64,000 bases of DNA from NCBI RefSeq assembly GCF_003721435.2, contig NZ_CP054585.1:558001-622000 (forward strand), written 5' to 3'. The DNA is from Halorubrum sp. CBA1229 (GTDB taxonomy: Archaea > Halobacteriota > Halobacteria > Halobacteriales > Haloferacaceae). Below the pieces are notes generated by a model that made no database searches, was not told the DNA's origin, and saw only the letters and a list, made by a program, of their open reading frames with translations. Positions 17,529-25,236 of this stretch are shown here, piece after piece. The number at the start of each line of letters is the position of its first letter. Within the stretch, counting starts at the first letter, position 1. The position numbers and the translations under genes are program-made.

Positions 17529-18428
17529 CTACACGATCTCGCGGACGATCGCGGCCGCCTCCGACGCCGTCGGCGCGAGGACGTACACGATCGGTTCGAT
17601 GCCGACCGCGCCGGTCTGGTAGAGGACGAGCGTGTCGTCCGGATCGGCGCCCGCGACCGCGTCGGCGACCGCCTCCTCGGTCGACCGCTCGGCGTCGAAC
17701 TCGACGGTCGGGTGCGACTCGGCGAGCGCCGCGACGGTGTCGGGCTCGTATCGGACGTTCACGGCGCCGCGGGCGGTCGACCCCGCCTCCCGGGCCACGA
17801 GCAGCACCGTCGCGACGTGTTCGCTTACGCCGAACTCGGGCTCGCCGGGGACCATCGCCTGCCCCTTCACGTCGACGAGGCGACCGGGGACGGCCGCCAC
17901 GTCGTCGATCGTCCGCGCGTCGTCGAGGCACTCGGCGACGTTGGCACCGACGTTCGGGATGAGCGCGGCGAAGCCGGAGGCGTTCGTCAGGGTACGGAGC
18001 CCGCGCCGCACCGAGCCGAGGACGCGCTCGCGCTCGCGGAGCCCGCTGTCCGGGTCGTGGACCGAGAACTCCACGTCGGCGTCGGCGAGCGCCGGCATCG
18101 CCTCCTCGTGGAGGTCCGCGAGGAGGTCGCCCTCCTCTAACCGCCGGATCAGCACCTCGATCTCGACGAGCGCGGCGACCGGGCTCAGGTCGCCGGCGGC
18201 GAGGCCCGCGCCAACCCGGTCGACCAAGTCGCGGACGCGGTCGTCGGCGACGATCCGCTCGTGGCGCGCCACGTCGCCGTGGGCGTACTTCGAGACGGCC
18301 GACTGCGAGATGCCCAGGGCGTCGGCGACCTCCCGCTGGGTGAAGCCGCGGTCGCGCAGGTCCTCCGCCAGCATCGAGCGGACCGTGGGGAGGAACTCGT
18401 CGACGACGACCTCCTCGATGAACCTCAC
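17529..18428 (-). CDS. thiR: Thiamine-responsive transcriptional regulator ThiR (HTH + ThiN)
   Basis: A 299-aa protein with an N-terminal Cro/C1-type helix-turn-helix ([21 protein letters not shown], about residues 28-48) and a C-terminal ThiN-like domain (about 130-299), the fold that binds thiamine phosphate. In archaea this fusion represses thiamine genes when thiamine phosphate is plentiful. ThiN landmarks include [32 protein letters not shown] and [20 protein letters not shown]. It overlaps dcd by 4 bp (ATGA). A clear candidate target is thi4 at 23644-24579, whose start is preceded by a palindrome. Confidence 0.9.
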
Positions 18429-23643: not shown

Positions 23644-24579
23644 TCAGTCGTCGGCCGGCGCCGGCGCGTCGCCCGCGGAGAGCCGGACCTCGGGGCCGTC
23701 GACCTCCAGCTCGTCGAGCGCGGCCTGTGCGGCGCGCTTCCCGGAGACGAGCATCGCGCCGAACGTCGGCCCCATCCGCGGGAGACCGTGGGCCGTCGCG
23801 ACCGCCATGCCGGACGCGATCAGCCCGTCGTGGACGACGCCGGTGTGCTCGACGACCGCGTCCTCGCTCTCGCCGACCCACATCGAGTCGTGACCGGGCG
23901 AGTCGTGGCCGGGGGCGCCGTACTCGCCGTCGGCGGTCTGGTCCATCCCGGTGTTGTGCTCCTTCGCGTGCTCGATGCCGGGCGCCGAGAGGACGCCGCG
24001 CTCGTCGAGCTTGCTGATCGCGACCGCGTCGTGGCCGGTCGCGTCGATCACGAGGTCGGACTCGACCGCGATCGGGTCGACGCAGGTGATCTCGCGCGGG
24101 AGCGCGTGGACCGGCGTCCAGTTCATCACGATCCCGCCGACGCGGTGGTCCTCGCGGACGACCAGATCGGTGAACTCCGTCATGTTCTGGACGCGCGCGC
24201 CGGCGTCGCAGGCCGCCTTGATCAGCCCGGAGCAGGCCTCGGGACCGGGCGCCGTATAGAGCCCGTCGACGTCCTCGACCGGCTCGTAGTCGACGTCGAG
24301 GTCGTCGAGGATCTCCTGTGCGGGGTCCCGGACCGTCACCGTGTTCATCAGGAAGCCGCCGAGCCAGAAGCCGCCGCCGAGGTAGTTGTTCTTCTCGACG
24401 ATCATCACCTTCACGCCGCGCTCGGCCAGCTCCTTGGCGGCCATCAGCCCGGAGGGGCCGCCCCCGAGCACGATCACGTCGGAGTCGGTGAACTCGAGGA
24501 AGCCGTCGGTCCACTCGTTGCCGATAGCGCGGGTCACGTCGGTCTCGCTCACGTCGCTGAAGCCGTCGAATCCGTGCAT
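23644..24579 (-). CDS. thi4: Thiamine thiazole synthase Thi4
   Basis: Thi4 (311 aa) builds the thiazole moiety of thiamine from NAD and glycine. The FAD/NAD-binding motif is [21 protein letters not shown], followed by [19 protein letters not shown] and a C-terminal [16 protein letters not shown] Cys at residue 166 in REITCVDP corresponds to the cysteine reported as essential in the Haloferax Thi4 (Cys165), which suggests that the sulphur comes from the protein's own Cys rather than from free sulphide. A 26-bp palindrome directly precedes the ATG and is a likely ThiR operator. Confidence 0.94.
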
Positions 24580-24605
24580 ACAACTTAGTGATATTACTTA
24601 GTTGT
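24580..24605 (-). promoter_or_regulatory. 26-bp palindromic operator of thi4, probable ThiR site
   Basis: ACAACTTAGTGATATTACTTAGTTGT is an imperfect palindrome; the two halves match at all but four pairs and are centred on the ATAT at 24591-24594. It abuts the thi4 ATG and covers the stretch where a leaderless promoter's TATA box and start site would lie, the geometry of a repressor operator. (Sequence split here as ACAACTTAGTGAT / ATTACTTAGTTGT.). Confidence 0.65.
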
Positions 24606-24655
24606 GAAAGGCGTTGCGGTCGATACGCGGAGTACGGACCCGGCGATCCGGTCGA

Positions 24656-24775
24656 TTATTTATAAATAGTACCCGCTGGAACGGCAGCGAACGCCTCCAA
24701 AGCCCCAGCCACTCGGCTAGACGTGACTGGTACCGGATCGCCGGCGAACACCGCCAAAGCCCCAGCCTCGCGGTC
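24656..24775 (+). repeat. Dispersed repeat, truncated copy B
   Basis: Begins TTATTTATAAATAG and contains two boxes, CCTCCAAAGCCCCAG (24694-24708) and GCCAAAGCCCCAG (24753-24765). They are separated by CACTCGG...GGATCGCCGGCGAACACC, which aligns over about 80 bp with the reverse complement of copy A (2298-2369). The GC-rich body of the long copies is missing. The rest of the 24606-24969 spacer shows no gene. Confidence 0.75.
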
Positions 24776-24969
24776 GCCGATTGCGACCGCTCGGCGGCGC
24801 GCCGCCGCTTCAGTGTCGTAGTCGACCACCGACGCCAGACTCGCGAATCGAGCGCCCGAAGCGGGGTCGAAGCGTCGATATCTCCGCGCCTCTAGCTCGG
24901 TCGGCCCGTCCCCCTCGACGCCCCCGACTCGTAGCCTTTTTACCCGCGCTGGCGGTAGACGGACTCACT

Positions 24970-25236
24970 ATGGCTGAGGACAAGGCACGAAGCACCGGTA
25001 GTGCGGGCCGATTCGGCGCTCGCTACGGCCGGGTCTCCCGCAAGCGGGTCCAGGACATCGAAGCAGAGATGCGCAACGCGACCGTCGACGGCGACGACGT
25101 CACGCGCAAAGGCACCGGCATCTGGGTGAACGAGGAGACCGGCGAGACGTTCACGGGCGGCGCGTACCGCCCCGAGACGCCCGGCGGTCGCACCGTCCGC
25201 CGCTCCATCCGCGCCGCGCTCGCCGACGAGGAATAG
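24970..25236 (+). CDS. rpl37ae: 50S ribosomal protein L37Ae without zinc-ribbon cysteines
   Basis: An 88-aa L37Ae (eL43), which binds 23S rRNA in the large subunit. The N-terminal [19 protein letters not shown] and the C-terminal [21 protein letters not shown] match the family well. The middle normally folds as a zinc ribbon with CxxC...CxxC. Here that region reads [23 protein letters not shown] and the whole protein contains no cysteine. It is the first gene of the rpl37ae-rpoP-pcc1-pfdB cluster, 4 bp from rpoP, so it is presumably expressed and not a pseudogene. Confidence 0.93.

Follow-up and report, generated by a model that had tools for sequence, protein, structure and literature searches.

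The imperfect palindrome that lies against the start codon of the thiazole synthase gene thi4 in Halorubrum sp. CBA1229 is very probably an operator of the thiamine regulator ThiR on the thi4 promoter, a reading drawn from comparison of sequences. The element lies in a 64,000-nucleotide stretch of the genome, which we refer to as the window (contig NZ_CP054585.1, positions 558,001 to 622,000). The preliminary description had proposed it as a candidate ThiR operator, and the recurrence of the site at thi4 of relatives and at other thiamine genes supports that proposal. The inverted repeat (ACAACTTAGTGATATTACTTAGTTGT) has two gapless 13-nt arms in which 11 of 13 pairs match, and 19 of its 26 bases are A or T, in a window of 65-75% G+C. 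On the minus strand, from which thi4 is read, it runs ACAACTAAGTAATATCACTAAGTTGT and passes directly into the ATG (24579-24577), so that the 26-bp AT-rich palindrome abutting the start codon was described correctly. Coordinates are collected in Table 1.

Table 1. Positions of the candidate operator, its parts and associated features (window coordinates unless a genome is named).
Feature	Position	Strand	Basis
Candidate operator: imperfect palindrome of 26 bp, directly against the thi4 ATG	24580..24605		sequence, conservation
Start-proximal box ACTAAGT (consensus ACYNRGT), -10 to -4 from ATG	24583..24589	-	box counts
Distal box ACTAAGT, -23 to -17, spaced 13 bp from its proximal partner	24596..24602	-	box counts
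Likely BRE/TATA region, conserved CGACCGCAACGCCTTTC at -43 to -27, directly upstream of the operator	24606..24622	-	position
thi4, thiazole synthase, 311 aa	23644..24579	-	Pfam Thi4, TIGR00292
thiR, HTH + ThiN regulator, 299 aa, GTG start	17529..18428	-	HTH_3, ThiN matches
Second HTH-ThiN paralogue (relatives)	G014:C11:515017, G017:C59:22665, G033:C3:23082, G032:C59:20080, G025:C1:1139779		
Dispersed repeat	24699, 24756, 58607	+	
Dispersed repeat	2353	-	
Dispersed repeat, one mismatch	2296	-	

The preliminary description had also called the palindrome unusual for a GC-rich genome, and this was borne out for its base composition and not for its palindromy. Palindromes with 11 of 13 pairs occur at 15 places in the window, against 7.4 +/- 2.6 in 40 simulated first-order Markov sequences, and the presence of 15 equal palindromes led us to reject rarity as evidence in its own right. 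The other 14 are all GC-rich, and none of the 40 simulated sequences yielded such a palindrome with at least 18 A/T bases. Allowing up to three mismatches, the thi4 site pattern is found at a single place in the 3.58-Mb genome, and when the window was scanned with a thi4-site matrix the thi4 site scored 43.4 and the runner-up 8.5. Nevertheless, the strongest evidence that makes a chance origin unlikely is the recurrence of the site at the same place before thi4 in other species and at other thiamine genes.

Conservation at thi4 was followed in the best 80 of 592 confirmed Thi4 relatives in a collection of public genomes, and the counts accordingly apply to near relatives; the closest sequences among them come from Halorubrum species. 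One locus (L013) was dropped since it lies on the same contig as L012, reversed, which left 79 loci. On that contig (NZ_CVRT01000014.1) the thi4 region is present twice in mirror image, which is probably an artefact of assembly. At 51 of these 79 loci the best palindrome in the neighbourhood of the start sits exactly on it, at 7 it is 3 nt off and at 21 it lies elsewhere, a tally in which the start of L047 was placed 9 nt too late; the later counts use the corrected start. Two copies of ACYNRGT spaced 13 bp apart, with at most two mismatches, are present at 70 of the 79 loci and absent from 9. The proximal box is perfect at 67 loci and has at most one mismatch at 76, the corresponding figures for the distal box being 42 and 58, while 78 loci have T at -14 and 78 have A at -13. 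In six loci from Natronomonas (L035, L041-L045) the proximal box is retained with at most one mismatch and the distal one is not; all six have a ThiR match in the flank.

Upstream of the operator, at about -43 to -27, the same set of thi4 loci shares a conserved CGACCGCAAC stretch that continues as TTT or TAAT. In leaderless haloarchaeal promoters this is the place of the BRE and TATA elements, and from its position the stretch is likely to be the BRE/TATA region of a leaderless thi4 promoter. The location of the palindrome between this likely TATA region and the start codon, the near-constant T and A at -14 and -13 and the stricter conservation of the start-proximal box could all be accommodated if the palindrome were a core-promoter or initiator feature of thi4 rather than a regulator site. 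We give that explanation very little chance, as thiC and thiB have the same pattern of two boxes 13 bp apart, which is absent from 30 thiR loci, and nothing else in the window comes near the score of the thi4 site. To our knowledge, core promoters are not known to require self-symmetric ACYNRGT boxes.

A degenerate form of the site pattern with up to two mismatches matched two places in the whole genome, thi4 and thiD, while the control pattern matched none. The thiD site (C1:1249570) lies 11 nt before thiD, which encodes the HMP-P kinase (TIGR00097), and its box reads ACTAAGT, identical to both thi4 boxes. A looser pattern added a third site (C1:1431876) that overlaps the ATG of thiB, the gene for the binding protein of a thiamine ABC transporter; the product matches the sfuA/thiB subfamily (TIGR01254) without reaching the threshold of the stricter thiB model. 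Because the looser pattern has 118 matches in the genome against 28 for its control, the thiB site rests on its matrix score (20.3), its position and its counterparts in relatives. Among the looser matches listed, 11 picked by eye were rescored, and the neighbouring genes were read at thiD and thiB only. The single 15-bp module with one mismatch was set aside as not specific in this genome (4 places, control 7).

The preliminary description had suggested a scan upstream of thiC, thiE and the transporter genes, and of these the transporter gene thiB has a site, in addition to thiD. The genome has a thiE, before which we found only a single box with one mismatch; a match scoring 15.8 nearby belongs to a different gene, and an operator at thiE was rejected. 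thiC was not found in this genome, nor is there a thiC match in 22 of the 39 genomes searched. Since thi4, thiD, thiE and thiB are retained without a detectable thiC, the organism possibly depends on an outside source of the pyrimidine precursor or of thiamine. Some Haloarcula likewise lack thiC, as stated in one passage of PMC12029414.

The other thiamine genes of the relatives were scored with matrices for which only thi4 sites had served as the training set. At thiC, the two-box pair with at most two mismatches is present at 16 of 17 loci, and the neighbouring module has its highest mean score when offset by exactly +13 bp (11.3, the second-best offset giving -2.7). These 17 loci were counted from 19 matches; two of the matches (L098 and L100) are pieces of one split gene in G018, where the best 26-bp score is 16.9. 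At thiB the pair is present at all 30 loci, our own included, and the start codon stands at the same offset from the site at 29 of them (a second copy in G024 and weak matches were left out of this set). The picture at thiD is less uniform. Matches to thiD occur in 38 of 39 genomes, 30 loci were taken and the 23 from Halorubrum, including our own, were counted: 15 have a perfect box, 10 have the 13-bp pair with at most two mismatches and 13 do not, with L133 and L144 showing no module at all. Among the seven further thiD loci, a module is found in L146-L148 and none in L141, L142, L143 or L145. Lastly, three relatives have a site at tenA, its centre 38-50 nt before the start; the gene was identified by family search for L223 and by visible likeness for L227 and L173. 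The idea would have been undermined by an element missing at thi4 of related species or at other thiamine genes, and it came through this check: the element is found at thi4 of near relatives (the box pair at 70 of 79 loci), at thiD and thiB of this genome and, in relatives, at thiC, thiB, some thiD and some tenA genes.

These sites stand out from the background. Across 39 genomes including our own, the pattern with at most two mismatches occurs at 41 places, 33 of them at thi4, thiC, thiD or tenA and 8 elsewhere, the latter about the level of the reversed control pattern (7 matches in the same genomes). In this tally G008 C17 and the second G012 C14 place were called thi4 through sequence identity to L022 or contig symmetry; of the 8 places elsewhere, neighbours were read at two, G032 and G008 C11, and a third, G031, was checked for thi4 only. 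The background was taken from thi4-locus DNA outside the thi4 starts, 1.07 Mb in all, in which 6 matrix matches reach at least 15, one of them in the second, mirrored thi4 region of L012. Pairs of boxes 13 bp apart are commoner: the same background holds 279 with at most two mismatches, 38 of which have at most one, so that a chance pair with at most two mismatches is expected in about 2% of 66-nt stretches and 9% of 330-nt stretches. At thiB, therefore, the fixed offset to the start codon carries more weight than the pair alone. As a negative control, the surroundings of thiR in 30 loci contain no site (best score 4.3). We would like to note that, among the exact 15-bp modules of relatives whose neighbours were read, four (TAYYACYNRGTRRTA; L221, L230, L231 and L233, position 1501) have no recognised thiamine gene beside them; two more such modules were recorded.

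The gene for a ThiR-type protein, which had been placed 6 kb from the palindrome, is indeed there, at a distance of about 6.15 kb. Its product has an N-terminal HTH domain (HTH_3, 28 bits, cut-off 23) and a C-terminal ThiN domain (153.9 bits, cut-off 25), and no other ThiN match was found in the genome. The predicted model has a mean pLDDT of 87.5 and a pTM of 0.59, and its ThiN part matches 2php and 2pb9 by fold. A sequence search of the PDB with ThiR returned 8 sequences at E up to 1, including two ThiN structures, and none of these matches spans both the HTH and the ThiN parts. Where 5 of 6 ThiDN proteins have a Met-bearing segment, our ThiR has a gap; the 2017 work of Hwang and colleagues (J Bacteriol 199:e00810-16) is said to have identified the loss of a Met on the extended helix of catalytic ThiN as the mark of a non-catalytic ThiR. 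The GTG start of thiR (window 18425-18428) overlaps the stop of the upstream gene, which we take to be a dCTP deaminase gene, and thiR is for this reason probably part of that operon. In some relatives there is a second HTH-ThiN paralogue beside a thiD/thiDN match or thiC, with 37-42% identity to our ThiR.

It could be that a different regulator binds the palindrome and controls the thiamine genes while ThiR acts elsewhere. Since 38 of 39 genomes have a ThiR-like match (G023 a weak partial one only), co-occurrence cannot single ThiR out, and G012 (94% complete) has a thi4 site and no ThiR match. The binding of ThiR to the palindrome is a prediction, and thiR itself has no site, self-regulation through a site of its own being rejected on the 30 thiR loci. 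We nevertheless regard a different regulator as improbable: the sites concentrate on genes of thiamine synthesis and uptake, with those elsewhere at about control level, no ThiN protein other than ThiR, which has an HTH domain, was found in the genome, and in Haloferax the repression of thi4 and thiC has reportedly been assigned to ThiR acting through an operator.

With the palindrome as a ThiR operator, regulation could proceed as follows, although we infer each of the leaderless promoter, ThiR as the binder, repression on binding and the ligand. ThiR would sense a thiamine phosphate with its C-terminal ThiN domain and, with its N-terminal HTH, bind the two ACYNRGT boxes between the TATA region and the start codon of leaderless thi4. 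When thiamine is plentiful, bound ThiR would block TBP, TFB and RNA polymerase, turning thi4 off. The same shut-off would apply to thiD and thiB in this genome and to thiC, thiB, thiD and tenA in relatives.

What the unit of the operator is can be asked separately. The preliminary description had taken it to be the 26-bp palindrome, which is present at thi4, but the unit shared among genes appears to be smaller: the common denominator of the thi4, thiC and thiB sites is two ACYNRGT copies with centres 13 bp apart. Pairing of AC with GT inside the boxes is high throughout (thi4 0.80, thiC 0.78, thiB 0.99). Symmetry about the centre of the whole site varies, with values for the outer arms and the spacer, respectively, of 0.64 and 0.67 at thi4, 0.88 and 0.44 at thiC (16 loci, L082 also left out) and 0.47 and 0.10 at thiB, where the boxes are nearly invariant. 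On the strength of the shared box pair, the self-symmetry of each box and the lack of spacer symmetry at thiB, the palindrome can be read as two adjacent small operators, and what the genes share seems to be a pair of 7-bp boxes, each symmetric in itself and set 13 bp apart, more than a 26-bp palindrome. The outer-arm symmetry at thi4 and thiC counts against a pure box reading. Column covariation was dropped as a means of choosing between whole-site and box symmetry, its signals being mixed and confounded by relatedness: z reached 2.9 for whole-site pairs outside the central TA pair and 3.3 for the direct repeat -20/-7, and within the proximal box it was 2.9 for -11/-3 but -4.3 for -8/-6.

We therefore offer a modular operator tentatively, as a proposal somewhat more likely to fail than to hold. 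Each ACYNRGT box, within TAYYAC-YNR-GTRRTA, might be the full site of one ThiR dimer, with one or two boxes per promoter at a strict 13-bp pitch and two adjacent dimers in the interval from TATA to start codon, and the long palindrome would be a by-product of two small ones. One dimer per box is what we infer; a single dimer spanning both boxes is possible. If the operator is modular, the number and quality of boxes would rank the genes, with uptake, thiazole and pyrimidine synthesis having two boxes and the kinase gene thiD often one main box.

The loss of pairing across the spacer at thiB, where the boxes are retained, also bears on an RNA-level switch, that is, a TPP riboswitch or leader hairpin. 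The thi4 palindrome could form a short hairpin if it were transcribed, and a TATA-like sequence lies further upstream (24657-24671). We consider such a switch next to negligible and rejected it: a scan of 24300-25000 against Rfam matched no family at E up to 1, the region folds no better than shuffled sequences (z -0.24) and a TATA-like string at -45 to -110 occurs in only 7 of 25 Halorubrum loci. The TATA-like sequence itself is strong, lies about 80 bp upstream of thi4 and is possibly the promoter of a neighbouring repeat element or of a divergent transcript. That repeat is dispersed and intergenic, with a core AAAGCCCCAGCC inside a conserved GAACACCTCCAAAGCCCCAGCCG. Neighbouring copies are 54-57 bp apart in 7 of 12 pairs, and by eye they often follow a TTTATAA-like sequence and are often followed by an inverted repeat. 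The repeat also occurs in 19 of the 80 thi4 loci (the best 80 of 592, the duplicate L013 included). No Rfam match was obtained at the two places scanned, and of the 7 papers containing one of three core strings, none is on haloarchaea, judged by title. The repeat may correspond to a small RNA or to a mobile element.

The candidate operator sequence is ready for the bench, and with it a small, checkable thiamine regulon (thi4, thiD and thiB) in a Halorubrum genome with no thiC found. Should the two-box reading hold, it would predict the number of ThiR dimers per promoter and provide a compact thiamine-responsive promoter for haloarchaeal genetics.

The ThiR operator system itself is already known from Haloferax. 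In Haloferax volcanii, the HTH-ThiN protein ThiR reportedly represses thi4 and thiC through an operator, and the same work of Hwang and colleagues is said to describe both genes as leaderless and the operator as conserved across archaea. Archaeal ThiR regulons were reportedly reconstructed by Rodionov and colleagues in 2017 (J Bacteriol 199:e00743-16) by comparative genomics, with genes of thiamine synthesis and transport under control. The system is thus in print, and the thi4 site is very probably a further case of it; the two-box layout is the sole part of the finding that may be new. In the literature, the Rodionov et al. 2017 regulon study is cited in PMC10746257 and PMC12029414, a passage of PMC12029414 states that ThiR was identified in all Haloarcula and Natrinema species studied, and the figure 3 legend of PMC4215014, for a drawing of the Haloferax thi4 region, names the HTH-ThiN gene HVO_0662.

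The system described here resembles that of Haloferax volcanii in its HTH-ThiN regulator, its candidate operator at the thi4 start and a ThiN part without the Met-bearing segment. The Haloferax system reportedly covers thi4 and thiC, whereas here thiC was not found and the sites are at thi4, thiD and thiB. The description in terms of boxes and spacing derives from the present analysis. Like the ThiR regulons reported by Rodionov and colleagues, the one predicted here takes in both synthesis and transport genes. TPP riboswitches also turn off thiamine genes on a thiamine compound, but they are RNA elements and have no match at the thi4 locus. The ThiDN thiamine-phosphate synthases (PDB 2php and 2pb9) have the ThiN fold in common with ThiR; unlike them, ThiR has an HTH domain where they have the kinase, and the Met-bearing segment found in 5 of 6 ThiDN proteins compared is missing from it.
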